64,000 nucleotides of DNA from Candidatus Woesebacteria bacterium (GTDB lineage Bacteria > Patescibacteriota > Microgenomatia > UBA1406 > GWC2-37-13): the NCBI GenBank assembly GCA_020429045.1, contig JAGQLS010000005.1, positions 1 to 64,000 of the forward strand, read 5' to 3'. Below are positions 6,019 to 53,628 of the stretch, one piece after another. A program made the position numbers and the translations under genes. The notes below the pieces were generated by a model that was not told the DNA's origin, searched no databases, and saw nothing but the letters and a program-made list of their open reading frames with translations. Within the stretch, counting starts at the first letter, position 1, and the number at the start of each line of letters is the position of its first letter.

Positions 6019-7032
6019 TCATACCATGACGTCTTCAAGCGTTCGTCTTGGACTATGGTGGGGAATGCGGTTCACATAAGCTACCCGGCAAAAAAAGGAT
6101 GGTGATCCGAAAATATTTATTGCCTTTTTAAGTTGTTGCTTCGATGATTCGTGTTCGATGATACCTGCCATCGGCGCAGTGAATAAATTATATTTTGTAC
6201 ATAACAACGAAAACCGTTGAAATGACTGACCGGTTTTAACCCACCCGATTCTGTCATCTGTACCTATTGTAAATATTGCAAGAGCCTGTGAGGCAAGTAT
6301 GAGGTTTTTGTCTTGTCTTGACTGTCTCGATGAAGGAACATTCTTTACCAAATAAGGACCGATGATTGTAAGTATGTCTGGTAAACCACTATCAAAAAGT
6401 GGTATCCCATCATGTTGTTGAGTATAGTTTGATCGGATCCAATGAGAAAGTTCTGTTTTGAAAACGACATCTCCGAAAGCAAAATTAATTGCGTGCTCCA
6501 TAATATCCGCAATTATCTTTTTTTTCTTTTCGTCAATGATGATCTCTATACCTGTTCCTGGCTCTATATCGACTTGTTGAATCATTTGCGCTGCTTGTTT
6601 TGTCATTTTTCTTTGAGAAGGGGGGAAACGATTGGTTACTCGGTCGATGAGATAATTAAATAGTTCGTCGTGCTTTTTTTTCTTTATTTTGTGCGTTCTG
6701 ATGATGATCGCATCGGCTATAAAGCTTTCAGGGAAATATGATACTTCATACGCAAAAGAAAAACGTTTAAGTGCTAATAATAAATTTTCAAGCGCACACC
6801 CTATACTTATATATGCTTCTTGGTTTTTTCGATCTCCATACGGAATAGTGCGTGACCAGTCCAATGAAAGATAAATTGTAGAATCTTTGATTTCGAAGCG
6901 CCATGGTTGGGTATTGTGACTGCTAGGAGCCAAAATTGCATACCCAATACAAAATTTTAGTTGTTCTTCATATGCGCCGCGTGTGGGGAATAAGGATTCA
7001 TTTATTTTCCAAGCGTCATAGTTGTGTAACAT
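6019..7032 (-). CDS. Acg-type nitroreductase-like flavoprotein
   Basis: 337 residues. APSSHNTQPW at 35-44 is the signature of the Acg branch of the FMN-binding nitroreductase superfamily, and the C-terminal PRRTLEDVMV matches the end of that fold. Members are often flavin-binding proteins with uncertain or no reductase activity. The upstream gene encodes a ThiF-like protein six bases away. In mycobacterial Rv1355c (MoeY) proteins a ThiF domain and a nitroreductase domain are fused in one chain, so this pair looks like the split form of that fusion. The substrate is unknown; a dehydrogenation or flavin-storage role in the lyase/ligase pathway is inference. Confidence 0.8.
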   Translation of the reverse strand: MLHNYDAWKINESLFPTRGAYEEQLKFCIGYAILAPSSHNTQPWRFEIKDSTIYLSLDWSRTIPYGDRKNQEAYISIGCALENLLLALKRFSFAYEVSYFPESFIADAIIIRTHKIKKKKHDELFNYLIDRVTNRFPPSQRKMTKQAAQMIQQVDIEPGTGIEIIIDEKKKKIIADIMEHAINFAFGDVVFKTELSHWIRSNYTQQHDGIPLFDSGLPDILTIIGPYLVKNVPSSRQSRQDKNLILASQALAIFTIGTDDRIGWVKTGQSFQRFSLLCTKYNLFTAPMAGIIEHESSKQQLKKAINIFGSPSFFCRVAYVNRIPHHSPRRTLEDVMV

Positions 7033-7038
7033 GCAAAA

Positions 7039-8031
7039 TTAAGTAATGTGTTGTAACAGGGTTGCCTTTTTCTTCTGAGTTAACTCTTGATCGTCATCAC
7101 TACCAAATATGTCATCTAACATTACATAGTAGCGACTTGATCGCAATAACGAACCGGTCAGGATTTTTGTCAAAATCGTAGTAACGATTCCGCCCGCAAT
7201 GCTGGCAGTAGCCCCTAATTGAGGCCATGTAGGTACATTGGCGTTTATTGCAAATAACGAATTTAGCATGCGTTCAGAATTATTGTCTAAACCAACAAGC
7301 TGAATGATAAATTTTTTCCTCTCTTGTTCGTCCAACAAAGTAAAATCGATATTTTCTGGATTTTCTACTCTACCTAAAAACATTTGTGTTTTAGGATCCA
7401 AATCATATCGCTCGACATCGACAAAAACGTTGTTGCCTACATCTACTGAGGAAACAAGTGGTATACCCAATTCTCGGGCAAATTTTCTCAACAGTATTTT
7501 ATGTTCAAAATTGTCTATCTCGTCAACTACGGCGTCTAATTTGGGTTTTCCAAAAAAAATCGCTTTTATGCTCTTTGTATCGGTTTTTTTTGATATTGTA
7601 ACGCGGATTAACGGATGCATCGCTTGTATTTTTTTTTTCACAACATCAACTTTATATTTGTCGACCGCAGACCACGGAAATCTTAATCGATTGAGATTCG
7701 TTGCATCAACAACATCGGGGTCGGAGATCTTTATGTAATAGGGTCGAATTTGCATGACCCATGTAAGAGCGGCATGACTCCCAACGCTCATGCCAAAAAA
7801 TCCAACTGTTTTTTTGCGTAGTTCTATTTGTTCATCAGGATATATCAAATTGCGATTACGAGCTGAGGTAAGCTCATAATATGCTTTCGTAGAGTACGGC
7901 ATAATGGTGGGCGTCGTCTTTGATTCCGTAATAACTTCTCGCTTGAGTACCTTCAACTCACTAGGGCTTGGGTTCTCGATATGAGCGTTTCGTATCTTAA
8001 ATAGTTTCATCAAAATATCGTCGCTTAACAT
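7039..8031 (-). CDS. ThiF/E1-like adenylyltransferase without cysteine
   Basis: 330 residues. Rossmann-type ATP site GFFGMSVGS (about 78-85), then DPDVVDATNLNR (104-115) and the acidic VVDEIDN (168-174), all typical of ThiF/MoeB/E1 enzymes that adenylate a carboxyl group. I find no cysteine anywhere in the chain, so neither the E1 thioester cysteine nor the CxxC zinc site of MoeB/ThiF is present. This resembles MccB-like or Rv1355c-like members that adenylate without a thioester step. It lies between the ligase (5 bases) and the Acg-like gene (6 bases). No ubiquitin-like partner with a GG tail is visible nearby. The substrate is unknown. Confidence 0.85.
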   Translation of the reverse strand: MLSDDILMKLFKIRNAHIENPSPSELKVLKREVITESKTTPTIMPYSTKAYYELTSARNRNLIYPDEQIELRKKTVGFFGMSVGSHAALTWVMQIRPYYIKISDPDVVDATNLNRLRFPWSAVDKYKVDVVKKKIQAMHPLIRVTISKKTDTKSIKAIFFGKPKLDAVVDEIDNFEHKILLRKFARELGIPLVSSVDVGNNVFVDVERYDLDPKTQMFLGRVENPENIDFTLLDEQERKKFIIQLVGLDNNSERMLNSLFAINANVPTWPQLGATASIAGGIVTTILTKILTGSLLRSSRYYVMLDDIFGSDDDQELTQKKKATLLQHIT

Positions 8032-8036
8032 GTGGA

Positions 8037-9533
8037 TTATGCATTTTTTATAACTTTCTTTCGAGGAAATTTTTTTGGGTCTCCATGTTTGTATAGCATA
8101 ATTTTTGGATGGGTTTTCTCACCTACATGATTCGATACATATTCGTATTCTTTATTAATCGCAATTAGTTCTCTCACAAATGTCTCTCTAATGAGCGAAG
8201 TGAGGCTTTTATCTGGTTCTTGTTTGCGCATAAGTTCGACATGACACAAGAACAAAGAATTCCCCGCGTCGTCGTCGACAACCTCCATTGTAAACCGACC
8301 AGTAATATATTCTTGCAATGACTCGTGATTTAATACGTGGTCGACGTGTTCTGAGTAAATGTTTGCCCCATATATTTTAACCATAAATTTATCTCTTCCA
8401 AAAAGATACACAAATGGAAGCTTCCATGCATTGCTTAGGTTGTTTTTGAAATCAGGGAAAGAAGTAAAATCGAAGTGTTTTATCATGGTCGAATATCCTA
8501 CCACCCCACCTTCGTCATGAATGTTATAGCGCACCAATGGACAACCAGCGTCTTTCGTAATATGCAATTCGCCATCGACAGCCTCAATAAAGGTAAGTCT
8601 TGGATCAAAAACGAATAATGCCGGCAAACGATTCTTTTTAACAATGATTTCTTTCAATTTTACATTTTTGGACATCACCTTGCGCATGTTAATGGTTAAT
8701 GCGCTTTCCCAACCCATGAGGGCGGCATCAGCTGAACCATAGAGGTTTACAATAGTTTCTTGATTTCTGTTTCCAAGTTGTTCACCAAGATGATCGCGGA
8801 GTCTTTCTGTTATCGCCTGTCCTGTACCCAAAAGTCGCACATTCGCTTTGCCGATCAACGCTTGTTCTTTTATTACTTCAACAACCTCTTTAAGAAACGG
8901 GATGTGGCCCGAGATAATGATTTCGTCAAAGGCATCCTTGTTTTGTCTAACAACAGAAAGCACCTCTTCTAGTACATATCCTGGTGACATAAGAGTAACG
9001 TTGTATCCCTTCCACGCAACAAGCTGTACAGCCATTTGGGTGAACGTCCCAGCTATCCAATTCCCTAAAGCAAAACCGTTAATAAACAATACGGATTTAT
9101 TTTTAAGCCCAAACGTGTCTCTAAAGATAAGTTCGTGCGCATGAGCGCCATCAATCTCGTGTGAAAGGTTTCTGGGCCAAAGATGAGGGTCTCCTGTGGT
9201 TCCTGAACTTGTCGAAATAATGGTTACATCCTTAAATGATCCATCCCAGGTTCGAGATTTTATGTCATATTGAATTATATAGTTTTCTTTTGTTGTTACG
9301 GGGACATGACAAAAATCCTCGATGGTTGTAATTGTCGCGGGTTGTATGCCATTCTTATGTAGGAAATCTTTATATGCCGGTACGCGTTTTGCAGCAGCAT
9401 GAAAAAGAGACAGTGCGTTTTTCCTAGCTTGTATTATGATCTTTTTTTCATTGTTTAATAATGAAGGTGAATAGAAGGATTCGTCTGATAACCATTGATT
9501 CAATCTTCGCTTGTTTTGAGTAGTTAAACTCAT
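8037..9533 (-). CDS. PaaK-like adenylate-forming carboxylate ligase
   Basis: 498 residues of the phenylacetate-CoA ligase/F390 synthetase branch of the ANL superfamily. The phosphate loop is STSSGTTGDPHLWPR (about 107-121); LYGSADA, the RYNIHDEGGVV motif and GRDKFMVKIYGANIY near the hinge follow in the normal order. The reaction would be activation of a carboxylic acid as an acyl-adenylate and transfer to CoA or another acceptor. Its ATG overlaps the stop of the aromatic lyase gene by four bases, which makes the cinnamate-type product of that lyase the obvious candidate substrate. That link is inference; the acceptor cannot be read from the sequence. Confidence 0.85.
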   Translation of the reverse strand: MSLTTQNKRRLNQWLSDESFYSPSLLNNEKKIIIQARKNALSLFHAAAKRVPAYKDFLHKNGIQPATITTIEDFCHVPVTTKENYIIQYDIKSRTWDGSFKDVTIISTSSGTTGDPHLWPRNLSHEIDGAHAHELIFRDTFGLKNKSVLFINGFALGNWIAGTFTQMAVQLVAWKGYNVTLMSPGYVLEEVLSVVRQNKDAFDEIIISGHIPFLKEVVEVIKEQALIGKANVRLLGTGQAITERLRDHLGEQLGNRNQETIVNLYGSADAALMGWESALTINMRKVMSKNVKLKEIIVKKNRLPALFVFDPRLTFIEAVDGELHITKDAGCPLVRYNIHDEGGVVGYSTMIKHFDFTSFPDFKNNLSNAWKLPFVYLFGRDKFMVKIYGANIYSEHVDHVLNHESLQEYITGRFTMEVVDDDAGNSLFLCHVELMRKQEPDKSLTSLIRETFVRELIAINKEYEYVSNHVGEKTHPKIMLYKHGDPKKFPRKKVIKNA

Positions 9534-11209
9534 AACGTCTGATAAATTTCTTTCATGACATGAGTTATCATTTCACCATTAACTATGCTTTGATATAAAT
9601 CTTCTATCATTCCTCCCAATGGTTCCTCTCGGGTTACATAATTGGTTTTACTACGTAAAAAATTATACATGGGGCGTGTTTTTGACGAAAGTAAATGGCT
9701 GCCTCCTCGCAGATCAACCGCCTGTGCAACAGCAAGAAGATTCTGTGCACATGAATAACGCGCTACCCGAAGATTCTCTAAACCCAATATTCCCGATGTC
9801 AACGCGTGCGAGGTGATGTCTTGATTGCCCTCCTCATGAACACCAAAAAAAGTACTCACTGGAATTGATAATAATGAAGAATATACGTCAAACATACCCG
9901 ATTGGATTTGTATTCCTTTAAAGGCACATTGTGTTATGGCATCTTTATCTGAAAGATTTGCTGGAAGACCGTTATTTTCATGTGGGCTTACCATTCGAGC
10001 CAAATGCCTATCGTTCAATTTCGTGATTTGCGTAAGAATTTTACGTGTAGAATCTGCCACTTCTACCATATTCATAGCTATAAAATTTCCTCCACTAACC
10101 CATTGCCATGGTTCTTCGTTCTCATTGGTAAACTCAGGAGCTACCCACAATGGATTGTCTGACGAAGAATTTATGTTGATTGTTATTATATCAAGATTGT
10201 GCTTTATTTTTTCAATATTTATACCTTGATATTGGGCTAAACAACGCAAACTATATCCATCTTGAACTTTGACTCCTTTTGGTCGCAATTGATGACCAGA
10301 CATCTCCTGATATGCTAATTTGCTCCCATTGAGAAGGTGTCTAAAAATTGATGCAGCCTCTGCGTGGCCAGGATGGGGTCTCACGTTCTCTAACAACTTA
10401 TGAAAGGACCTGTCTGTTCCTTTCAAAACCTCAATAACCATTGCTCCCAGGACAAAAGAAATCATTAAGAGATTAATCGTATCGATAACAAGGAATGTTG
10501 TAAGCGCAGAAGAGAAATTGTCCCCGTTCACAAAACCCAAGCCGGCTTTAGGATCTAAAACTAATGGCGTTATGCCAGCTTTTTTCAGTGCTTTTTTTGC
10601 TTCAACTATTTTACCCTGTTTATCAAGCACTTTTGTACCACTTAGTTGCCTCAAGGCGCTCAAAACTCTAGCGTTATGTGCTAAATCTCCTGAAGCACCT
10701 ATGCCCCCATACTGACTCACAATAGGAGTAATTTGGTGATTTAAAAGCGAAATAAGTTTTTCTATGTCTGGCTGTTTGACTGCGCTTACTCCTTTTAAGA
10801 GCATATTTGCGCGGATAAGCATAGCGGCACGCACGACATCTGTATCGAATTTTGGCCCAACAGTTACATCTACGTGCACAATTCCTTCCGAAATCATTTT
10901 TGCCATTTTCAATCTCTCTTGTTTAGTCCCGTCAACAAGAACTCGTGAAGCACGTGCGCCAAAACCAGTGTTACAGCCATATACTGGTACTCCATTTTCT
11001 ATATCGCTCATCATATGCTGAAAGGAGTCTTTAAGTCTTTTACTTTGTTTTGTATCAAGATGAATGGCGGCTTTTGTTTTTTTTCTTCCTACTGCAAAAA
11101 TCTCTTGTATTGTTAGCGATTGTCCATCAAGATCAACGGTTTTTTTAAAAGAATTGATCAATTGGGCAATTTCAATAATATTGAAAGAGTTATAAGTATG
11201 ATTTTTCAT
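9530..11209 (-). CDS. MIO-dependent aromatic amino acid ammonia-lyase or aminomutase
   Basis: 559 residues of the HAL/PAL family. The MIO-forming Ala-Ser-Gly is at 172-174 (GGIGASGDLAH), the catalytic Tyr77 loop is YGCNTGFG, and QDGYSLRC (316-323), SSSDNPLW (348-355) and HEEGNQD (458-464) follow. The selectivity pair aligns as Met105-Ile106. That is hydrophobic as in phenylalanine lyases, not the His of tyrosine lyases nor the Ser-His of histidases. I therefore favour phenylalanine or a similar hydrophobic substrate, forming cinnamate; an aminomutase cannot be excluded. It is coupled to the ligase by overlap. A histidine-degradation role is unlikely, as no hut genes are near. Confidence 0.87.
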   Translation of the reverse strand: MKNHTYNSFNIIEIAQLINSFKKTVDLDGQSLTIQEIFAVGRKKTKAAIHLDTKQSKRLKDSFQHMMSDIENGVPVYGCNTGFGARASRVLVDGTKQERLKMAKMISEGIVHVDVTVGPKFDTDVVRAAMLIRANMLLKGVSAVKQPDIEKLISLLNHQITPIVSQYGGIGASGDLAHNARVLSALRQLSGTKVLDKQGKIVEAKKALKKAGITPLVLDPKAGLGFVNGDNFSSALTTFLVIDTINLLMISFVLGAMVIEVLKGTDRSFHKLLENVRPHPGHAEAASIFRHLLNGSKLAYQEMSGHQLRPKGVKVQDGYSLRCLAQYQGINIEKIKHNLDIITININSSSDNPLWVAPEFTNENEEPWQWVSGGNFIAMNMVEVADSTRKILTQITKLNDRHLARMVSPHENNGLPANLSDKDAITQCAFKGIQIQSGMFDVYSSLLSIPVSTFFGVHEEGNQDITSHALTSGILGLENLRVARYSCAQNLLAVAQAVDLRGGSHLLSSKTRPMYNFLRSKTNYVTREEPLGGMIEDLYQSIVNGEMITHVMKEIYQTL

Positions 11210-19364: not shown

Positions 19365-19528
19365 GTGACCTATAATATATCACAGGTGTTTGGGTTTTTC
19401 AATAGGTCATTCTTGCTCGTTTTTTATAATAGTATATATCGGATATGTAATCGTTGTTTTTTTTCTTTGTTTGCAACCATAAAAAAATGTGTGTAAAATT
19501 CAAGTGTTACTATTTTTATCTGATTATT

Positions 19529-19846
19529 ATGGCAGTTGCACATATAACAAACGATTCTTTCCAAAGCGAAGTTGCGGACCACAAGGGAACGGTTCTTGTA
19601 GATTTTTATGCCGATTGGTGTGGGCCTTGTAAGGCTACGGGGCCTATTATCGAGGCGCTTGCCGAAGAGATGACGGATGTAAAATTCGTAAAAGTAAATG
19701 TTGACGAAAATCAACAACTTGCTGGTAAATATTCTGTCTTTTCCATCCCTACGTTTATGGTTTTTAAAGATGGCAAAATGGTAAACCAATTTGTCGGCGC
19801 GCGCAGTAAAGACGGTTTTCAAGAAGAAATCAAAAAGGCGATGTAA
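19529..19846 (+). CDS. trxA: Thioredoxin
   Basis: 105 residues from the ATG at 19529; the frame is open upstream, but the upstream residues are not thioredoxin-like. Active site WCGPCK at 30-35, the cis-Pro region FSIPTFMVF, and the usual NVDENQQLAGKY helix start. It is a cytoplasmic dithiol reductant, and the natural electron donor candidate for the class II ribonucleotide reductase in this window, although that link is not shown. It is a single gene on the plus strand, divergent from the recombinase. Confidence 0.95.
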   Translation: MAVAHITNDSFQSEVADHKGTVLVDFYADWCGPCKATGPIIEALAEEMTDVKFVKVNVDENQQLAGKYSVFSIPTFMVFKDGKMVNQFVGARSKDGFQEEIKKAM

Positions 19847-19918: not shown

Positions 19919-20377
19919 CTATCGTTGCAGAATCCGTACCACTTTCCCATGTATGGTTTTGAGCGTAAGATGGGCCTGGTGAAGCAAAAAAAGACACAAC
20001 TCAGCCAACCAGCGATACGAAGAAGTTATGGGTTTGTGTAGTCCGGTCACCACCTTGTCGTCTGAAATAGGTAGTGCGATTTTGTGTTTTGTGTCGAGAG
20101 AGCTCGCATCAACCGTCTGAAGGCCTGCCTTTTTGAGATGGGGGTGTAGTTCAATCGTGTCTTTTTTGATTTCAACATATTCTGCTACCTCTTTATCCTC
20201 TATTTTTGGCTCTGTGTCAACAAATTCTATATCCGGAGTGATTTCGGCGCCTTCGTGCTTTATAGAGCGGGGTTCTGTTTCTTTCCCCCCAAATGAGTGT
20301 GTCGCCAAATTTTTTGCGTGTCCTTTTCCAAGAATTACATCTTCGACGTTGATGGGGGTGAAATTCTTGGTTGTCAT
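19919..20377 (-). CDS. Hypothetical protein
   Basis: 152 residues, not recognised. The first 90 are polar and acidic (many Glu, Asp and Lys) and probably flexible. The C-terminal 60 (ISDDKVVTGLHKPITSSYRW, then LAELCLFLLHQAHLTLKTIH and a basic RILQR end) look like a short folded or membrane-touching helical domain. A TACACT box five bases before the ATG supports expression. Its neighbour upstream is the riboswitch-controlled zinc-ribbon gene, whose stop lies 63 bases before this ATG. It could belong to the same transcript, which would put it under cobalamin control too. Confidence 0.55.
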   Translation of the reverse strand: MTTKNFTPINVEDVILGKGHAKNLATHSFGGKETEPRSIKHEGAEITPDIEFVDTEPKIEDKEVAEYVEIKKDTIELHPHLKKAGLQTVDASSLDTKHKIALPISDDKVVTGLHKPITSSYRWLAELCLFLLHQAHLTLKTIHGKVVRILQR

Positions 20378-20440: not shown

Positions 20441-21622
20441 TTAATTATTAGATTCACATTTTTCATTGCCACACGTATATTCTTCTTCCTTTGAATTAAA
20501 GGTGTTGCCTTTCTTATTGCCACAATAGGGGCATGTCACACATGCTTCTTTTGTTTTTTTATTGCTGGAAAAACTTAGTGAAGATGGTTGTCGAGCGGCT
20601 GTTGAATACATACTGCCCAAACCAAAAGGAAGAAGCGGTGGTTGTGAAAAGGATAAGTTTGGCTGGTTCGGCAAGGAAAAAAGAGATGTGGTGGTGCACC
20701 CATACAGCACTGTTGATCCACCGTTTCGCATAGCTTCTGCATAAACCATACTGAGGTACATGTGCTGAATAGCGTTTTGGTCCACTGTAAAGGTCCCTTT
20801 CTGTCTAGTCAAACGAAGCCACTCGTCATCAACAGAGGCTTCTTGAAGTCCGCCCTGTTGTTGCAAAGCGTAATATTGACGAGACACTTCGTCCAACATA
20901 TCTCGCATGGAGTGCTGTTTTGGGTTGTTAGAGTGGCGTTTTGAAATATATGCGGGATTGTCGATGTGTGCATAGAATAGTGAACTCATGCGCCACAATA
21001 GCTCGTCAAGCGTTTGGTTTGTTGCGATTGGATGTTGTAAATAATCAAGTAGGCTAAGCTCTTCTTGCTTTGACAAGGAGTCGAGTAATGTTTGTATCGG
21101 AAATCGCGATTCATCTATTTTTACATTGAGGTGAATCGAGGTGCCGTCTTGTTGTTTTATGCCAAAATAGAGCCTGCCCGAATCAAAAAAAAGCTTGTCA
21201 AACGGCTCTTGATCGCCGGCTGAGCCCGCAGGAGAATACCACAATGCAACATTCCCAGGCTTACTGTCAAAAATGAGGTCTTGATATGCTCGAAAGCCTT
21301 CTATTGTTGCCCCGTTGCGCTCACCAGGGTGGATTTGTGATTCAATACGAAATAATTCGTTCTCTGTAGGTTCGGAATAAAAACCCGTTGGAAAGTGATG
21401 ATACCGATATGCGCACGACACCGGCTCGTCTTGCAAAAATTCGCGTTCGTAGGCTTCTTTGTTTCTATAAAGCTCCCTGAGCGCAACACTCTGGCCTACC
21501 GCTTCACTAACGCGCATATAGCGCTCATACTCCCATTGAGAAGAAATGCCAAGTTCTGCAAGTTCTTTGAAGGGTGTTGTATATAATCGGGGCTCTATAA
21601 CGGTGGTCTCTACAATACTCAT
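20441..21622 (-). CDS. Riboswitch-controlled zinc-ribbon protein of unknown function
   Basis: 393 residues from the ATG at 21622, chosen because an AGGGA ribosome site lies four bases upstream; the longer frame needs a TTG at 21649. No known family was recognised. The N-terminal 300 residues are rich in aromatic and acidic residues, with no membrane segment and no signal peptide. A Ser/Pro/Leu-rich linker (about 320-360) is followed by a zinc ribbon with CPYC and CGNEKC pairs at the C-terminus. The striking feature is its leader: a complete adenosylcobalamin riboswitch ends 73 bases before the start. That makes it a candidate corrinoid-linked protein (uptake, handling, or a B12-free replacement), though nothing in the protein itself shows B12 binding. 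Confidence 0.75.
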   Translation of the reverse strand: MSIVETTVIEPRLYTTPFKELAELGISSQWEYERYMRVSEAVGQSVALRELYRNKEAYEREFLQDEPVSCAYRYHHFPTGFYSEPTENELFRIESQIHPGERNGATIEGFRAYQDLIFDSKPGNVALWYSPAGSAGDQEPFDKLFFDSGRLYFGIKQQDGTSIHLNVKIDESRFPIQTLLDSLSKQEELSLLDYLQHPIATNQTLDELLWRMSSLFYAHIDNPAYISKRHSNNPKQHSMRDMLDEVSRQYYALQQQGGLQEASVDDEWLRLTRQKGTFTVDQNAIQHMYLSMVYAEAMRNGGSTVLYGCTTTSLFSLPNQPNLSFSQPPLLPFGLGSMYSTAARQPSSLSFSSNKKTKEACVTCPYCGNKKGNTFNSKEEEYTCGNEKCESNN

Positions 21623-21694
21623 ATTCCCTGCTCGGGGCGCAAGACGCAAAAGAAGAGCGATAGCAATCTACCCAACGGTCTTGACGCTTTTCTA

Positions 21695-21901
21695 GAAATT
21701 TGGTCGGTCTTCGGACTTATAAATAGTTCGTTAAATATGAGATGATTAGATACTAAAAAATATTCTAATAACTCAATTATCTAACAGACCATAACTATCT
21801 ACTTACCGCTGCGGCACAGTCACGGATTTACACCGTGTTCCCTATGTATGAAGTGTGTCTTCCCGTCTCTTTCAAAAAAACAGTGACACACACCAAACTT
21901 C
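21695..21901 (-). promoter_or_regulatory. Adenosylcobalamin (cobalamin) riboswitch
   Basis: Read on the minus strand, the 5' GAAGTTTGGT (21901-21892) pairs with the 3' ACCAAATTTC (21704-21695) to close P1. GTGTGTC and GACACAC form an inner stem. The conserved core follows: GGGAA, CACGGTGTAAATCCGTG, ACTGTGCCGCAGCGGTAAG, a variable AT-rich arm with a TTAGA/TCTAA hairpin, and AGTCCGAAGACCGACC (21717-21702). These match the cobalamin riboswitch consensus in order and spacing. The first gene downstream starts at 21622. Its AGGGA ribosome site can pair with CCC in GCCCCGAGCAGGG, so control at translation start is likely. Confidence 0.92.
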
Positions 21902-21971
21902 GAAATGATAACACCCATAGCATATCGCTGGAACAAAATATTTTCAAGTAGATTTTTTTATCAATGTGGGG

Positions 21972-27948: not shown

Positions 27949-28674
27949 TTATAAACACGTCATCTCTCGTGCGAGTTGGTTGAGCTCTTCTCCGTTTATT
28001 GCTAAACTTGTAAAAAAGACTCCGTTTTTCTGCGCACTTTGTATCCTTCTATTTTTTACAAGTTTTTCGAGGTTTTCGGGTAAAACAATAATTACTAGGT
28101 GGGGTGGTGGAAAGTTGTAGAAAAAATAGTGTATGTTATGTATTCTTTGCGGGCTTAAGACTGGATGTTTGTCACGATCAAACATGAGTGATTTATAAAC
28201 TTGTCTCGGGCTTCCGGTTTTAATCTCAAAAACAACTGGAGTCATTGTTGGTCGCCACATTCTTACGTTGTCCATTTGTAAAAAAGTCCTCCCGGTTGTG
28301 GGTCTTGTTAAAAGAACACTTCCTGTTGCCCGATCTATATAGCAACCACCCGAAAACAAAATTGGGTGGTTATTAAAAGCTTCTCGCACGCACTCCTCAC
28401 CATCTAACAACTGCCTAATACTCTCGAGCTGTGCGTTCGCAACAACTTCTGCTAAATACCCTCGTGCGTGTTGGTTTATTTGAGATGAAGATATAATATG
28501 ACGCCATGTCTGGCTTCTTTGTAACTCAACTTGAAGCGCTTGTTTGTCAATTGTTGGTTTGTTGTGTTGAAGGGTTTGTTGTAGTTCTAATGGTAATGGT
28601 TTCGTCCCGCGCTCCACAAACCATGCTTGGGCGGCGTTTTCTTGTTGAATAAGCCAGGCTGGGTATGTATACAT
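27949..28674 (-). CDS. PD-(D/E)xK-like predicted nuclease, copy 2
   Basis: 241 residues from the ATG at 28674, chosen because it aligns with its neighbour; a TTG at 28713 would overlap the upstream gene. It is a clear paralogue of the gene next to it: both share a WxxI start, ARGYLAEVV, a NHP[IL]L stretch and a VV[FV]E[IV]KTG core. The Glu of LAEV, an Asp in LQMDNVRMW and the E-I-K of FEIKTG fit the order of a PD-(D/E)xK nuclease site. The Asp region is less like the standard than in copy 1. Role unknown: restriction, repair or plasmid defence are all possible. Confidence 0.6.
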   Translation of the reverse strand: MYTYPAWLIQQENAAQAWFVERGTKPLPLELQQTLQHNKPTIDKQALQVELQRSQTWRHIISSSQINQHARGYLAEVVANAQLESIRQLLDGEECVREAFNNHPILFSGGCYIDRATGSVLLTRPTTGRTFLQMDNVRMWRPTMTPVVFEIKTGSPRQVYKSLMFDRDKHPVLSPQRIHNIHYFFYNFPPPHLVIIVLPENLEKLVKNRRIQSAQKNGVFFTSLAINGEELNQLAREMTCL

Positions 28675-28697
28675 TTTTATGAAATAGTTATCAATGT

Positions 28698-29501
28698 TTA
28701 CACTTGAGTACAATTCAATGCTTCTCGGATAAAACTTTCCAACTCTTCCTCGCTAAGTGGTAGCGAAACAAACAATATACCCGATTCTTCTGCTTCTTTC
28801 ACCATTTGGTGTTTTCTTATTCTCTCAATTTGGTTTTGTGGAACAGCAACGACAATGTGTAATGTAGATGATTTATATAATGTGGAGGATAATAATGACA
28901 ACCTCTGATCGCTGAGGGTTTGGTTTGTGCCCTCCCCGTAAAACAAATCTCTGATAATGTTTTTTGCTTTGCCCGTCTTGACCTCCACCACGATGGGTGT
29001 TTCTGCTCGCTTCCTTTTTGAACCCATCATAATAAGTCCGTCTATTTCAGAAGCGCATTTGTTTGTTTGTGGGTTAAAAACACACACTCCACCAGTAACG
29101 GGATCTATCATTCTGTGTTCTCCAGATAAAAGCGGGTGGTTCCTGAAAAATTCCTCAGTAACCTCTTGTCCACAATGAAGCTTTGGAATATTACTCAGAA
29201 AATCCATCATAACTACTTCGGCCAGATACCCCCTTGCTCTCAGAAAAAAATAACCACCCGGGCCCACCCTATAACTTTCTTCACGACGCCAATGCGCTTG
29301 TATATTTCTCCACCGGCGACTTTTTTGTATTTCTACATACAATTCCTGTCTGTTGAGATTGTAATGAGCCGATCTTGTTGCAATAAGGTTTTGTACCCAT
29401 TCTGGCACTGGTTGTATTTTCTGATTTAAGCACCACAACTGACCATCATATCGACCACCACCTAGCCACCCTGGAACAGATTCGTGTATAGTAGTAGCCA
29501 T
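28698..29501 (-). CDS. PD-(D/E)xK-like predicted nuclease, copy 1
   Basis: 267 residues from the ATG at 29501. An upstream GTG at 29540 is part of a TATAAT promoter box, so it cannot be the start. Motif order: RGYLAEVV (Glu), SEIDGLIMM (Asp), then PIVVEVKTGKA (Glu-x-Lys), the layout of a restriction-endonuclease-fold active site. A C-terminal helix-strand part (LHIVVAVPQNQIERIRK, GILFVSLPLSEEELESF) is shared with the paralogue downstream. Two adjacent copies suggest a heterodimer or functional split. No methyltransferase is nearby, so a classic restriction system is not supported. Confidence 0.62.
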   Translation of the reverse strand: MATTIHESVPGWLGGGRYDGQLWCLNQKIQPVPEWVQNLIATRSAHYNLNRQELYVEIQKSRRWRNIQAHWRREESYRVGPGGYFFLRARGYLAEVVMMDFLSNIPKLHCGQEVTEEFFRNHPLLSGEHRMIDPVTGGVCVFNPQTNKCASEIDGLIMMGSKRKRAETPIVVEVKTGKAKNIIRDLFYGEGTNQTLSDQRLSLLSSTLYKSSTLHIVVAVPQNQIERIRKHQMVKEAEESGILFVSLPLSEEELESFIREALNCTQV

Positions 29502-29729
29502 TGGTAAGTGTCTTATGTGTAACTCATATGTATTATACACTACTATAGGCTTTATATAAATTCTTCTTGGTTTCTTGATAAATGCAAGGTTCTAATCCAT
29601 GCTATCTTTGTTATTGTCTAAAGTGTCTATAATAAGGGGTTTAGGGCGAAGGTCCACAAATGAAAAATTAGAAGGAAAAAGGATGGCTACTGACGAGACG
29701 AAAGATAATCTTCTGAGTCAAAATGGGTG

Positions 29730-30251
29730 TCATACTTCTCTATCTTTTTCCGTATGCTTTCTCGCGAGGAGGAAAAGTAGATCAGAAAGCCTGTTGAGGT
29801 ATTGTAAAATGAGTTTATCGTCGTTTGTTTTTTGCTTTTTCTGGTGTAAAAATCCAGCCACTCTGCGTTCTGCCCTACGAACCACGGTGCGGGCAAGATG
29901 AAGGTGTGTCGATAGTATGCTTCCTTGGGGTAAAATAAAAACGGTTAGTTTTGGTAAGGCTTTCTCAAGGCCCACAATCTCCTTTTCGGTCTCTCTTAAA
30001 TAGTTTTTAATGGACGATTTTTTTAATTGGGCACCCGACAAATACGCCATAATAAGATACAGAGCGGTCTGTGTATTGGTTAATATCAGATGAACATGTT
30101 TGTCTAAACTTTTCTCGAGGGCCAAACCAATCGTGCCACTTGCCTCGTCGACGGTGCCGCATGCTTCGACTTGTGGGTCGTTTTTTAGCAGCCGCTTACC
30201 CCCAAAAATCGCCGTTGTGCCATCATCGCCTGTTTTTGTACTGATAGACAT
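29730..30251 (-). CDS. pduO: PduO-type ATP:cob(I)alamin adenosyltransferase
   Basis: 173 residues. The N-terminal STKTGDDGTTAIFGGKRLLK with the following KNDPQVEACGTVDEASGTIG is the PduO signature. PKLTVFILPQGSILSTHLH, RTVVRRAERRV and YLNRLSDLLFLLAR complete it. It transfers adenosyl from ATP to cob(I)alamin, making the cofactor needed by the B12-dependent ribonucleotide reductase encoded two genes upstream. It lies seven bases after the ECF S-component gene, so uptake and adenosylation are made together. All nucleotide and corrinoid contacts that I can recognise are present. Confidence 0.93.
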   Translation of the reverse strand: MSISTKTGDDGTTAIFGGKRLLKNDPQVEACGTVDEASGTIGLALEKSLDKHVHLILTNTQTALYLIMAYLSGAQLKKSSIKNYLRETEKEIVGLEKALPKLTVFILPQGSILSTHLHLARTVVRRAERRVAGFLHQKKQKTNDDKLILQYLNRLSDLLFLLARKHTEKDREV

Positions 30252-30258
30252 AGTCTTA

Positions 30259-30789
30259 TTATTTTAACGCAAGTTTTTGCATGATGTAGTTTGTCTCTAG
30301 TTTCGGGTTTGCGATAACCCATTGATATATAAGTGGGGAAAGAATAAAAGACAACACAACGTTCCCCGACAAGTGGTAAAGAGTAAAGGGAATTTGCCCA
30401 AAAAATGCCTCGGAAAAAGATTGATAAAAAAACAAGGGCCCAATGGTGAAACCCGTAAAGGCATCGTACAAAAGTGTGCCAACTACGGCAAATGTTACAT
30501 ATCCCCACACATTATTTCCTTTTTGTTTTGAAAAATATATTCCAGCCAACAAACCCAACAACCCATACGATGTGGCTGTTATTAATGTCCATACGCCAAG
30601 TGTTTGTGTTAGGAAATCGTAGGCGATAATTGCTAAAACGCCAAATACAAGACCGCTCCACTTTCCCCACTTTCTCGAAAACGGCATCATGGTGGTCATA
30701 ATTGGTTCTGTGTTTGGTGGATGAGGAATCAAACGCAGCGCCACAATAATAGTTAGTCCGATAATATATTTGATTGTGTTTTTTTTCAC
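30259..30789 (-). CDS. ECF transporter S component, probably for a corrinoid
   Basis: 176 residues with about six membrane helices and little else, the size of an energy-coupling-factor substrate-binding (S) subunit. The stretch RLIPHPPNTEPIMTTMMPFS after the first helix is like the substrate-side loop of several S components. The specificity is inferred from place: it lies between nrdJ (24 bases) and pduO (7 bases). The shared EcfA/EcfT energising module is not in the window. A precursor such as cobinamide, or a B12-binding alternative, cannot be told apart by reading. Confidence 0.75.
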   Translation of the reverse strand: MKKNTIKYIIGLTIIVALRLIPHPPNTEPIMTTMMPFSRKWGKWSGLVFGVLAIIAYDFLTQTLGVWTLITATSYGLLGLLAGIYFSKQKGNNVWGYVTFAVVGTLLYDAFTGFTIGPLFFYQSFSEAFFGQIPFTLYHLSGNVVLSFILSPLIYQWVIANPKLETNYIMQKLALK

Positions 30790-30813
30790 TTTTTTCCCTA
30801 AACTTGTTGTTTC

Positions 30814-33222
30814 TTAACACTCCGCATAACCGCAGCCATAGCATTTTGCACACCCTTCTTCACGTGCCAAAAGCGCTTGGCCGCACTCTTTGCAAATATC
30901 AAAATGTTTCTCTGTTGGTGTGGGTGACACGTCAATCCGCGCCGGTTGGTGTTCGTCTTGAGGCAACTCTGGTTGTTCAACCACACTCATAAGCTCAACA
31001 TCGTGCGACGTGCCATTCCCGTTTGTTGGCGTTTCTGGTTGAGCCAGCTTCTGAAAATGCATATCCAACACTTTCGCAAGGGCGTCGGGAAGGCTGCGTA
31101 CACGATCTTTCCCAAACCCAAGCGCTCGGCCACCGCCGATGCCGCGCAGTTGTTTAATAATGTTTTTCGCTTTTTCAGCACCGTTAACATGGTTGGTGGT
31201 GCGGAAGTACAAAGAAATCATCTTTCCCAAACCCTCCGCCATAGCAAACACGTCTGTTCCTGCTTTGCCAACGTTGATAAACACCTCGTGGGGCTCGTTG
31301 TTGCCGTTTGTGTTAATGGTGATATATGCGCGACCAACCGGCGTATCAATTTTATACGTTGCTCCATACACAACCATTGGTCGTGGCTTGACTGCATACG
31401 AGGGAAGCGCTGGTGTTTGTTCTTTTTCTTGAGGTTTTTTTTTGTCGCTATCTTCACGCTCCAAAACACCCTGGCGCGATCCATCGCGCATGTAGGCGAT
31501 GCCTTTGAGACCATGATCGTACGCGAGAGTATAAAGTCGTTTCACGTCTTCCACTGTGTGTGTGTTGGGTGCGTTTACTGTTTTTGAAATCGATGCGTCG
31601 ACGTATTTCTGAATAGTTGCCTGGACCATAACGTGGTCCTCGGGCGTCAAGTCGTTTGCGGAAACAAAATAATCAGGGCGCTCCAGCGAACCTTCATCTA
31701 CCTCATTTTGGTGTTTTTGATACCACTCTTCATATAAATGGTGGCGCATCACGTGTTTTCCCAGTCGATCTCGTCGAATAAACTCAAATTCGTATACCGG
31801 CTCGATGCCCGAAGAAGTGTTTGCCATAAGCGACGTGGAGCCTGTTGGTGCCTGCATGAGGATTACTGAATTGCGAATCCCGTGGGCGCGCACTTCTTTG
31901 CGAATTTCCTCTGGCATTTGTTTCATAAAACCGCTTTGGACAAATTTTTCTGCAACAAACCGTGGGAATGAGCCTTTTTCTTTTGCAAGCTCAACTGACG
32001 CGCTGTATCCTTCGTAGCAAATGATTTTGTATATCTTTTCAATAAACTCGAGCGATTCTTTTGAACCATAGCGAATGTGGAGTTTGATAAGGGTGTCACC
32101 CAAACCCATGGTTCCCAGACCAATGCGGCGTTCACCCTCAAGTTGGGTCTTTTTTATACCCTCAAACACATATGGGTCCATGTCGACAACGTTGTCTTGG
32201 AAGCGAACCGCGGTTTGCACTGTTTCGCTCAACAAATCAAAATTAAACGTTCCTGCTTTGTCTATCTCGTAACCTTCGACAAACGCAGAGAGGTTTATAG
32301 AGCCCAAATTACACACACCCCACGGGGGAAGTCCCTCTTCGCCACACGGGTTGACACAGACAATTCTGTTCCAATAATAATTGTTGTGCATTTTGTTGTA
32401 TCGTTCAAGAAACACCACGCCTGGTTCGGCAGACTTCCAAGCCGCTTTTGCAATGAGGTCCCAGATTTTTCGCGCTTTCACCACCTTATGTACGTTTATT
32501 TTCTTTCCCATTTCTTTCCATTTTTGGATGTCTCCATCCCACTTTTCGTCATATTCAAGGTCGTTTTTGTCGGGGAAAATGAGTGGCCAATCCTCGTCTT
32601 TTTTTACTGCTTCCATAAACAAATCGGAGACACACACTGAGAGGTTGGCGCCATTGATGCGAGCGAGGTCTTGTTTAACCGTAATAAATTCTTCAATATC
32701 TGGGTGCCAATCCCATAGCATAAGCATAAGTGCGCCACGACGAGTACCACCTTGTTGAATAATGTCTTTGGTCGCAAGAGAAAAAATTTCTGCCCAATTG
32801 CAAGGCCCCGAAGAGAAACCATTCACTTTCTCAACGCGCGCACCACGTGGGCGAAGGGTAGATAAATTGATACCAACACCGCCCCCGCGAGCCATAATCT
32901 CAATCATGTTTCCCAACGTATCGAGTATCCCCTGTCGTGAATCTTGTGGAGAGGGAATAACAAAACAATTGTAAAAGGTTACTGCAAAGCCTGTACCAGC
33001 TCCAGCGAGTATTCTTCCTCCTGGAACGTATTTGAAGTCTTCCATCGCCGAATGGAATTTCTTTGCCCACTCTTTTCGCTTGTCTGGTTTTTCTTTTTCT
33101 GCAACTGCGTCTGCAACACGCTGCCACATCTCTTCCGGCGTTTTTTCCAAAGGGTCGCCTTTTTTGTTTTTGAGAGAATAACGATCTAAAAAAACCTTCT
33201 CTGATACTCCTTTAAGTTTCAT
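30814..33222 (-). CDS. nrdJ: Adenosylcobalamin-dependent (class II) ribonucleotide reductase
   Basis: About 802 residues from the ATG at 33222 (a TTG at 33240 is the longer option). NrdJ-type features: VPGGRILAGAG near the N-terminus, FYNCFVIP and later NPCGEEGLPPWGVCNLGSIN, ARGGGVGINLS, and PTGSTSLMANTSSGIEP. The C-terminal zinc ribbon CKECGQ...CAKCYGCGYAEC is typical of class II enzymes and re-reduces the active site. It needs adenosylcobalamin; genes for uptake and adenosylation lie directly downstream. The regulator nrdR is directly upstream (about 80 bases). No other ribonucleotide reductase is seen in the window. Confidence 0.95.
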   Translation of the reverse strand: MKLKGVSEKVFLDRYSLKNKKGDPLEKTPEEMWQRVADAVAEKEKPDKRKEWAKKFHSAMEDFKYVPGGRILAGAGTGFAVTFYNCFVIPSPQDSRQGILDTLGNMIEIMARGGGVGINLSTLRPRGARVEKVNGFSSGPCNWAEIFSLATKDIIQQGGTRRGALMLMLWDWHPDIEEFITVKQDLARINGANLSVCVSDLFMEAVKKDEDWPLIFPDKNDLEYDEKWDGDIQKWKEMGKKINVHKVVKARKIWDLIAKAAWKSAEPGVVFLERYNKMHNNYYWNRIVCVNPCGEEGLPPWGVCNLGSINLSAFVEGYEIDKAGTFNFDLLSETVQTAVRFQDNVVDMDPYVFEGIKKTQLEGERRIGLGTMGLGDTLIKLHIRYGSKESLEFIEKIYKIICYEGYSASVELAKEKGSFPRFVAEKFVQSGFMKQMPEEIRKEVRAHGIRNSVILMQAPTGSTSLMANTSSGIEPVYEFEFIRRDRLGKHVMRHHLYEEWYQKHQNEVDEGSLERPDYFVSANDLTPEDHVMVQATIQKYVDASISKTVNAPNTHTVEDVKRLYTLAYDHGLKGIAYMRDGSRQGVLEREDSDKKKPQEKEQTPALPSYAVKPRPMVVYGATYKIDTPVGRAYITINTNGNNEPHEVFINVGKAGTDVFAMAEGLGKMISLYFRTTNHVNGAEKAKNIIKQLRGIGGGRALGFGKDRVRSLPDALAKVLDMHFQKLAQPETPTNGNGTSHDVELMSVVEQPELPQDEHQPARIDVSPTPTEKHFDICKECGQALLAREEGCAKCYGCGYAEC

Positions 33223-33300
33223 GTCTGTGTGTATAAGCAACTAATAATAAATTGTTTCTTGTTTTGGGTCTCTTATTATATAACCTTAACAAGATGTGTG

Positions 33301-33750
33301 TTACCCTGTTAATTTTTTAAGCTCTTTCTCAAACTCTTCAACGTCGACAAACCGCTTAAATACTGAGGCAAAACGTATATATGCTAGTTTGTCGAGTTCT
33401 TTGAGTTGGCTTGCAACTAGCTCCCCTATCCTTTGGCTTTGTATTTCAGTCTTTCCTCTGTGTGTCGCTTCTTGTTCTATAGTGTTTACAATATTTTCAA
33501 CCTGGTCTGCGGTAATGGTTGTTTTACCAACCGCCTTCACGATCCCTTCTCTTAGTTTTTTCCTGTCGAACCGCTCGCGCCGTTTGTCTTTTTTAATAAC
33601 AAGTATTGGAAGCTCTTCTACGCGCTCATAGGTGGTAAAACGCTTGCCGCAATCTGGACACGACCTTCTTCTTCTTATGGTTGTGCCGTTTTCAGAAACC
33701 CGCGTTTCTATAACTTCCGTGTTTGTATATTGACAAAATAAGCACTTCAT
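33301..33750 (-). CDS. nrdR: NrdR transcriptional repressor
   Basis: 149 residues. Zinc ribbon with Cys3, Cys6, Cys31 and Cys34 (MKCLFCQYTNTEV, RRSCPDCGKRF) and an ATP-cone domain (LVIKKDKRRERFDRKKLREG). It senses ATP/dATP and represses ribonucleotide reductase genes. It is the first gene of the nrdR-nrdJ-ECF S-pduO series. Two NrdR boxes lie at and upstream of its start codon, so it likely controls itself and, by read-through, the B12 salvage genes. Length is normal for the family. Confidence 0.96.
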   Translation of the reverse strand: MKCLFCQYTNTEVIETRVSENGTTIRRRRSCPDCGKRFTTYERVEELPILVIKKDKRRERFDRKKLREGIVKAVGKTTITADQVENIVNTIEQEATHRGKTEIQSQRIGELVASQLKELDKLAYIRFASVFKRFVDVEEFEKELKKLTG

Positions 33751-51846: not shown

Positions 51847-53628
51847 TCACTTCACCGTCACGCTTTTTGCGATATTGCGCGGCTTGTCGACGTTGTTTCC
51901 CAGTTCAACCGCCATAAAATAGGCAAGTAGCTGAAGAGGAACAACGTTTCCTATCGCATCGGTTTCTCCCGTGTCCGGAACGGGAAGAAAATAGTCATAG
52001 TTCTCTTGCTTCTTATGCCCGATAGCTATAACTTCAGCTCCTCGCAAGCGTACTTCGTTTATGGCGGTATTCATATCGTTTTTAACCACATCATCCGAGA
52101 CCACAGCGATGACAGGCACACCTTCCTCCATCAGGGTTATAGCATAGTGTTTAAGGTCGCCGGCGGGTATGGCATGTGCATGATGGTATGCTCCTTCGAC
52201 AATCTTTACCATCCCTTCGTTGACAACTGCAAGGTTTTGGTATTTACCTAACAAGAAAATGTGCTGTTTACGCGCTAAATGTTTTGCCAACATTTTCACA
52301 CGCGCGATATTTTGATTTTGCTCAAGATATGTGTGCAGCGCATAGGCAAGAAACTCGAGGTGCTTGTGCCCATTTTCATATTGCTCTTGTAGGGTTTTTG
52401 CCACGAGATACCCCCACGCAATCTGGGAAGAAAATACTTTCGTTGACATAACGCAAATTTCTGGTCCCGCTTCGCTCATGAAGGGGTAATCTGACATACG
52501 CGTCATCATGGAGCCCGGCATGTTGACCACAGAAGCGATTTTCATTTTTTTGTTTTTTGCATATTCGAGAACTTCCATAACATCTGCGGTTTCGCCGCTT
52601 TGCGAAGGGGCAATGATAAGATCATCTTTTTGAAACAAACCATAATAACTGCGTGCGTCTGCACCAACAAGGTTCGTCGCGCGTATACCACCAAACACCC
52701 TAAGGTAAAAGGCGATTTGAGAAGCGGCAAATCCAGCCGTGCCCGAACCGATCGTGTACACATGAGGTGCGCGTTTTGTTGCGTTAGCGAGTTCTTCATA
52801 CGTTCCCTTTGGTTGGGAAAGGAGCTTTCGTATAGCCTGCGGCGTCTCGAAAATTTCTTTGACCATAAAGTGGTCATGACCCTCTTTTTGTATGGTATCT
52901 GCTTTTATTGTCATAGGCTCAAACACAAAGGTCTTTTTTGTACCATCTTTAACGTCAAAAAGCGATACGTCGCCACCCTTACCAATCTGTATCATTTGAT
53001 TGTTTTCAACAACCGCCATAGTATCGACATATGGCGCAAAAGAAAGGACATCAGACGAAACAAATATATCGTTGGTTTTTGTATCTTTCCCGACAACCAG
53101 CGGCGAGCCATTGCGTGCAGCGTAGATTTCTCCCTCCTTGGTGAGGGCGATGATGGTGTTTCGCCCATCAAGCTGAAGGAACGCCGCCCTTATTGCTTCT
53201 AAAAGCGACTTTTGTGTTTTTTGTTTCTCTTCGATGAGCCGTACGATAACTTCGGTGTCTGTTTCGCTTGCAAAGCGATAGTTTTTTTCAACAAGCATTT
53301 TTTTGAGTTCGTCGAAGTTTTCTACGATGCCATTTTGCGCCAACACAAACGATTTGTCGGTGCTATAGTGTGGGTGTGCGTTGGTTGTATTGACCGCGCC
53401 AGTTGTGGCCCAGCGCGTATGGGCGATGGCACAATTACCGTTGGGAAGTTTTTCAAGCGAGCGTATGTCGCTTATTTTCCCCACTTCTTTTTCAACAAAC
53501 AGCGCATTATCCGCGCATACTGCAACACCCCACGAGTCGTACCCACGATAGTCTAATCGTTTGAGGCCGTTTATAACAATGGAGCCAGCGTTGGTTTTTA
53601 CTCCTTTGTACCCATAGATTCCACACAT
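51847..53628 (-). CDS. glmS: Glutamine--fructose-6-phosphate aminotransferase
   Basis: 593 residues. N-terminal glutamine amidotransferase with Cys2 (MCGIYGYKG), RLDYRGYDSWG, and HTRWATTG; then two SIS domains (IGSGTAGFAASQIA, SQSGETADVMEVLEYAK) and the C-terminal GDLKHYAITLMEEG and DKPRNIAKSVTV. It makes glucosamine-6-phosphate for peptidoglycan. A catalytic RNA-like leader lies upstream, which would cut the message when the product accumulates. Its substrate fructose-6-P is supplied by manA/pgi elsewhere in the window. Confidence 0.97.
   Translation of the reverse strand: MCGIYGYKGVKTNAGSIVINGLKRLDYRGYDSWGVAVCADNALFVEKEVGKISDIRSLEKLPNGNCAIAHTRWATTGAVNTTNAHPHYSTDKSFVLAQNGIVENFDELKKMLVEKNYRFASETDTEVIVRLIEEKQKTQKSLLEAIRAAFLQLDGRNTIIALTKEGEIYAARNGSPLVVGKDTKTNDIFVSSDVLSFAPYVDTMAVVENNQMIQIGKGGDVSLFDVKDGTKKTFVFEPMTIKADTIQKEGHDHFMVKEIFETPQAIRKLLSQPKGTYEELANATKRAPHVYTIGSGTAGFAASQIAFYLRVFGGIRATNLVGADARSYYGLFQKDDLIIAPSQSGETADVMEVLEYAKNKKMKIASVVNMPGSMMTRMSDYPFMSEAGPEICVMSTKVFSSQIAWGYLVAKTLQEQYENGHKHLEFLAYALHTYLEQNQNIARVKMLAKHLARKQHIFLLGKYQNLAVVNEGMVKIVEGAYHHAHAIPAGDLKHYAITLMEEGVPVIAVVSDDVVKNDMNTAINEVRLRGAEVIAIGHKKQENYDYFLPVPDTGETDAIGNVVPLQLLAYFMAVELGNNVDKPRNIAKSVTVK

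Follow-up and report, generated by a model that had tools for sequence, protein, structure and literature searches.

A cobalamin riboswitch ahead of a protein family with swapped zinc-ribbon tails in CPR bacteria

Cobalamin riboswitches of the Rfam family RF00174 typically control genes for the uptake or synthesis of B12 or for known B12-free isoenzymes, metE being a classical B12-off target, and an L5–L13 kissing-loop platform is known in other members of this group. Our search of the open-access literature found no paper joining cobalamin riboswitches with CPR bacteria (Patescibacteria). Here we analyse such a riboswitch in a 64,000-nucleotide stretch of Candidatus Woesebacteria DNA (the window). 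The locus shares with the described Shine–Dalgarno-occluding L5–L13 switches a full aptamer, complementary L5 and L13 loops and a Shine–Dalgarno sequence in the hairpin arm. It departs from known RF00174 switches in its target, here called family A, which is not an uptake, synthesis or known B12-free isoenzyme gene, and in its platform, which is very short (about 10–60 nt). The features of the leader and its gene are as follows.

21685–21912, minus strand: cobalamin riboswitch aptamer (RF00174; cmscan, full length over model positions 1–189)
21809–21819, minus strand: P5/L5, CUG-UGCCG-CAG, the loop UGCCG being the proposed kissing partner (placed by sequence position)
21625–21637, minus strand: putative expression hairpin P13/L13, CCC-CGAGCA-GGG(A) (conserved motif)
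20441–21622, minus strand: family A protein, 393 amino acids, predicted soluble (ORF with ATG at 21622 and stop at 20441; 54-member alignment)

With cmscan run over the whole window, the RF00174 match scored 55.3 bits (gathering score 31.5; E = 5.3e-11), which bears out the preliminary description of this leader as a cobalamin riboswitch. The 10-bp P1 given there, GAAGUUUGGU/ACCAAAUUUC, likewise appears in the minimum-free-energy fold, and the leader is more stable than 100 shuffled sequences (z = −2.8). A search of the whole genome found no second cobalamin riboswitch. The leader had also been said to read straight into the protein; family A is indeed the next gene on the strand, but 62 nt lie between the Rfam match and the family A ATG, and the expression hairpin sits inside those 62 nt.

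The L5 loop UGCCG occupies positions 21816–21812, and the L5 pattern CTGTGCCGCA[GA] recurs in 49 of 54 family leaders. In the P13/L13 hairpin, which ends 2 nt before the ATG in the window, the 3′ arm (AGGGA or GGGA) is a Shine–Dalgarno-like sequence, and the general motif CCC(C)G-N(1–2)-GCAGG(G)A, with the start close behind it, stands ahead of most family A start codons. This L13/Shine–Dalgarno motif was found in 45 of the 54 family leaders (0.15 expected from mononucleotide shuffles). Leaders from the rest of the class had it in 33 of 49 cases (0.05 expected from shuffles). L5 is equally conserved. The loop of L13, CG-N-GCA, is complementary to UGCCG over five pairs, with the N bulged. From this complementarity and conservation we infer an L5–L13 kissing pairing, both loops varying too little to show covariation. 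Folded alone, the short hairpin prefers another pairing, which is consistent with, and does not prove, a need for the kissing contact to stabilise it.

The platform is readable because the 3′ arm of the L13 hairpin carries the Shine–Dalgarno sequence and its loop matches L5, and such a kissing platform would imply that translation is off when cobalamin is bound. Binding of cobalamin, probably adenosylcobalamin (AdoCbl), would allow UGCCG of L5 to kiss CG-N-GCA of L13; the Shine–Dalgarno sequence in the 3′ arm would then be blocked and family A left untranslated, to be made when cobalamin is scarce.

The comparison covered 72 genomes of the window's GTDB family and a class sample of 373 genomes with that family included, all of them draft MAGs in which start codons were picked mechanically, and some relatives' Rfam scores fall under the gathering cut-off. 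A cobalamin riboswitch was present in 57 of the 72 family genomes, almost always once per genome, and at 54 of the 58 sites the first long downstream ORF was a homologue of family A, full-length in every case (about 350–490 amino acids). The preliminary description had left to such a survey whether relatives of the gene follow the same leader, and they do. The other four sites comprise one with a further member of the family that is cut by a contig end (G066), one with no sequence left (G070), one preceding metE (G033; confirmed by Pfam) and one preceding a short DUF4430-like gene (G015; called by eye). The metE leader of G033 (L020, C12:1021–1192) is a strong cobalamin riboswitch of 98.7 bits, and the same genome also has a family A riboswitch.

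Across the class sample, members of the GTDB family included, 176 of 373 genomes carry the riboswitch. Among 72 loci analysed outside the family, 50 precede family A; others precede large ‘family B’ proteins (12 loci, the assignment being loose for one or two) or uptake genes of the DUF4430/ECF-S type (8 loci, identified by Pfam at one, with DUF4430 at 1.5e-17 and DUF6580 at 6.1e-53, and by eye at the others), and 2 loci are unassigned. The named relatives are Candidatus Roizmanbacteria and Microgenomates MAGs, and outside the class the matches to the family A profile come from the ribbon part only. One family A copy, G291:C2, has a score and tail identical to those of G044:C6 (L168) from a genome of a different family, and is probably contamination of the G291 bin.

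Family B (loci L138, L143, L153, L157, L160, L164, L169, L172, L173, L177 and L180) follows the same riboswitch in other families. Its proteins are 546–821 amino acids long with long low-complexity middles, and in one subgroup a GIIF motif is conserved at the C-terminus. A relationship between their N-terminal part and the core of family A is conceivable, with hhalign E-values of 0.005 and 0.016 (one comparison each) and an HMM E-value of 6e-15 for L173; we regard these values as only suggestive and do not claim the relationship.

Two features within the family A gene recur in the comparisons that follow.

20696–20698, minus strand: codon of Cys309, in a GSC motif (Cys in 101 of 103 homologues)
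20456–20542, minus strand: C-terminal zinc ribbon, C361/C364/C367/C384/C389, tail type T7 (alignment)

The core of family A gave no sequence or profile match in Pfam, NCBIfam, PHROGs, PADLOC or the PDB, zinc-ribbon models alone matching weakly, and no curated family covers it, in agreement with the earlier placing of the 393-residue protein outside known families. The initial observation, a riboswitch ahead of a protein without a family, is confirmed. Column identity averages 17% over the 54-member alignment. AlphaFold2, run with 54 homologues, predicts a core (residues 30–250) mostly at pLDDT above 90, whereas the linker comes out disordered and the ribbon is poorly placed; a short member of 302 amino acids folds likewise (mean pLDDT 86.9). 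For neither of these two models did the PDB yield a match at E ≤ 0.001, and BFVD (viral) yielded none for the window's model at that threshold. PAS-like domains among the weak fold matches (TMt up to 0.49, E = 0.3) were not used as evidence. Fold comparison gave no significant match to a corrinoid-binding protein. The B12-binding domain PF02310 is absent by Pfam and by fold search, and neither Pfam/NCBIfam nor fold comparison revealed an RNR barrel or radical domain.

Unlike ECF/ABC B12 transporters, 102 of 103 family A members have no TM-like segment in a 19-mer scan, and no signal peptide was seen. Conservation among the 103 homologues is highest at Cys309 (98%), S130 (96%) and P131 (91%), followed by P198 (85%), E61 (84%) and R102 (78%). 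There is about one copy of family A per genome. PADLOC returned nothing for the window protein and five isolated weak matches among the 54 members, and a three-sequence query found no family A on viral contigs.

The C-terminal zinc ribbon reported earlier stands: C364, C367, C384 and C389 are 98–99% conserved in the 103 homologues, and the window's T7 ribbon is the sole copy in its genome. Setting tail types by hand and eye, we distinguish about nine, to which 86 of the 103 tails were assigned. These tails have been swapped between family A homologues, which is a new finding. The T7 tail of the window is about 50% identical to those of G025 and G059, while their cores are 18–20% identical; G032 and G033 share 77% identity in the tail and 19% in the core, and L126 and L125 share 72% and 13% respectively. 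The reverse is seen in G017 and G024, with cores 63% identical and unrelated tails (9%). On an 86-tip core tree, at least 43 changes of tail type are needed, against a minimum possible of 8, a shuffled mean of 58.6 and a lowest shuffle of 50. Misplacement in the core tree is an unlikely cause of the swaps, because close sisters with different tails are well supported (91–100).

In its constant core, swapped C-terminal modules and one orphan module, the family resembles polymorphic-toxin-like proteins, from which it differs in having small Cys ribbons for all its tail types, with no toxin domain or export-like segment seen. The orphan family A C-terminal module (L196, 1125–1422; G012 C36:17640–17867) shares a contig with the full gene, at a distance of about 10 kb. 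We considered and rejected the ribbon as a general targeting tag, types T1, T2 and T7 being essentially restricted, in the genomes searched, to family A genes and fragments of them. In several related genomes, ClpC-like ATPases (L189–L194) also have a C-terminal zinc ribbon, and beyond the ribbon they are unrelated to family A.

The wider neighbourhood in the window contains the following genes.

33301–33750, minus strand: nrdR (Pfam)
30814–33240, minus strand: nrdJ, adenosylcobalamin-dependent class II RNR (Pfam; TIGR02504, E = 2.8e-173)
30259–30789, minus strand: ECF S-component-like (DUF6580-like) gene, putative B12 uptake (sub-threshold PF12822 and PF20221; clusters with relatives' ECF-S)
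29730–30251, minus strand: pduO-type cobalamin adenosyltransferase (PF01923, E = 1.8e-46)
19919–20377, minus strand: P145, conserved protein of about 145 amino acids downstream of family A (same blastp cluster in 28 loci)
19454–19846, plus strand: thioredoxin, convergent with P145 (PF00085, E = 2.4e-33)

That the same cell has a B12-dependent RNR with adenosylation and uptake genes, as described before, holds for NrdJ, PduO and NrdR, with the ECF-S-like gene falling below the Pfam cut-off. P145 has no Pfam match. In the window, family A and the nrdR-nrdJ-ecfS-pduO operon (29730–33750) lie on the same strand with 8 kb between them. The order in relatives, on one strand, is nrdR-nrdJ-pduO-(DUF4430-ecfS)-[riboswitch]-A-P145 and then a convergent thioredoxin, a thioredoxin-like gene occupying this place in many of them, and the separation in the window looks derived. 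PduO was linked in 34 of the compared loci, P145 in 28 and NrdJ in 22, counts drawn from loci of unequal length, many of them truncated, with those of f18/f30 chosen for a nearby NrdJ (a biased sample) and those of family f1 chosen otherwise. Beside pduO in the window, two overlapping tandem ORFs of 254 and 280 amino acids (27949–29540, minus strand) are apparently paralogous, the 254-residue one having no Pfam match.

In G166 the slot that family A has elsewhere is taken by DUF4430 and ecfS, which the riboswitch, placed after nrdR-nrdJ-cobA, drives. In G301 the riboswitch is followed by a family B gene and then nrdR-nrdJ. The CPR uptake operons with DUF4430 and a DUF6580/ECF S-component are like the family A locus in having the same riboswitch and the slot behind nrdR-nrdJ-adenosyltransferase (L217); family A itself is soluble, unrelated to them in sequence and able to coexist with them. 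Strong NrdJ matches occur in 145 of 150 genomes with family A and in 157 of 223 without it (Fisher p = 8e-12, not corrected for phylogeny, from genome lists compiled by hand), NrdJ being common across the class (strong in 302 of 373 genomes). A search of the window's genome for B12-binding proteins of PF02310 gave none, and NrdJ may therefore be the main B12 client.

We favour, with a probability of roughly 0.4, a riboswitch of the OFF type and a family A protein that acts as a cytosolic corrinoid-handling factor in the B12-dependent RNR module. This reading is preferred because of the B12-off control, the membership of nrdJ/pduO operons, the cytosolic character and the near-invariant Cys; the riboswitch ahead of metE in G033 also supports B12-linked control. 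Family A would capture, de-ligate or reduce, or deliver scarce corrinoid to PduO/NrdJ. Cys309 might ligate the cobalt or act as a thiol, and a partner might dock on the exchangeable zinc ribbon. The cobalt-ligand idea follows the precedent of BtuM, in which a Cys is reported to ligate cobalt and drive decyanation (PMC6072759). The likeness to BtuM, CbrT and MMACHC-type handling proteins lies in the proposed role only, the Cys cobalt ligand being BtuM's in that account (PMC6072759); BtuM and CbrT are membrane S-components, and the searches revealed no similarity of family A to any of the three in sequence or fold. Against corrinoid handling stand the lack of a fold match to any corrinoid-binding protein and the rapid divergence and tail swapping, which would be unusual for a cofactor chaperone. 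Family A is not a simple replacement for uptake, because some genomes carry it next to DUF4430-ecfS and PduO. With B12-free isoenzymes (metE, nrdAB/nrdDG) it shares B12-off control, and it has no RNR or methyltransferase domain.

B12-off control and linkage to RNR would also suit a B12-starvation stress factor, which at low AdoCbl/NrdJ would use its ribbon to bind a cellular machine and so slow replication or translation or spare dNTPs. Binding to nucleic acid or ribosomes is common among zinc ribbons, and the apparent standing of NrdJ as main B12 client in a genome where the search gave no PF02310 protein also fits; we nevertheless consider this unlikely, as ribbon types swap fully while cores stay, which would be odd for a conserved machine, and the fold search found no known inhibitor fold. 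The swapping itself, at least 43 tail-type changes on the core tree, could instead point to an outward-facing or conflict protein (an effector, or one interacting with phage or host) induced by lack of B12, its polymorphic C-terminus under diversifying selection. The orphan module in G012 and, in one family, a T4SS coupling ATPase after P145 are in keeping with this, but neither signal peptide nor TM segment was seen, copy number is about one per genome, the window protein has no PADLOC family, the three-sequence query of viral contigs was negative and gene order is tied to nrdJ/pduO, and we judge such a role improbable.

The preliminary description had proposed a corrinoid-linked function separate from RNR. 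The window gene does lie 8 kb from nrdJ, and five family A genomes have no strong NrdJ match, in at least one of which (G189) family A is at a contig start and nrdJ is perhaps missing from the assembly. Relatives, however, place the riboswitch–A unit behind nrdR-nrdJ-pduO, within the nrdJ operon, and the co-occurrence with NrdJ and the failure to find PF02310 also speak against a separate function, leaving it very doubtful and the earlier interpretation as a whole partly supported. That the riboswitch is a relic with no control over the downstream gene is scarcely credible: matches are weak and truncated in some relatives (e.g. G024, G051), but aptamer core, L5, L13 and Shine–Dalgarno spacing are conserved across proteins only 15–20% identical.

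In these ultra-small CPR bacteria, family A probably represents a new element in coping with scarce B12. More tentatively, it could be an undescribed, new-fold family restricted to a single CPR class, where it would be the principal and usually the sole target of the riboswitch and would act in a new step of B12 economy serving class II RNR, with the recombining ribbon specifying a lineage-specific partner. Many CPR cells of the class depend on AdoCbl for their class II RNR, and a single riboswitch devoted to one gene would mark family A as the cell's main response to B12 scarcity. Family A may offer a way into the question of how a cofactor of DNA synthesis is acquired or rationed in ultra-small bacteria, and it would widen the targets of cobalamin riboswitches past uptake, synthesis and isoenzymes; that a single-copy gene under cofactor control exchanges its ribbons could bring to light a new type of interaction specific to lineages.

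Elsewhere in the window, a glmS ribozyme (RF00234; 53690–53916, minus strand; 45.5 bits) lies upstream of glmS (51847–53628) in this CPR genome. At 6019–11209 (minus strand), ORFs examined by eye include ammonia-lyase-like (aromatic amino acid), phenylacetate-CoA-ligase-like, ThiF/E1-like and nitroreductase-like genes, which together resemble a biosynthetic cluster of small size, in a genome that is itself tiny.
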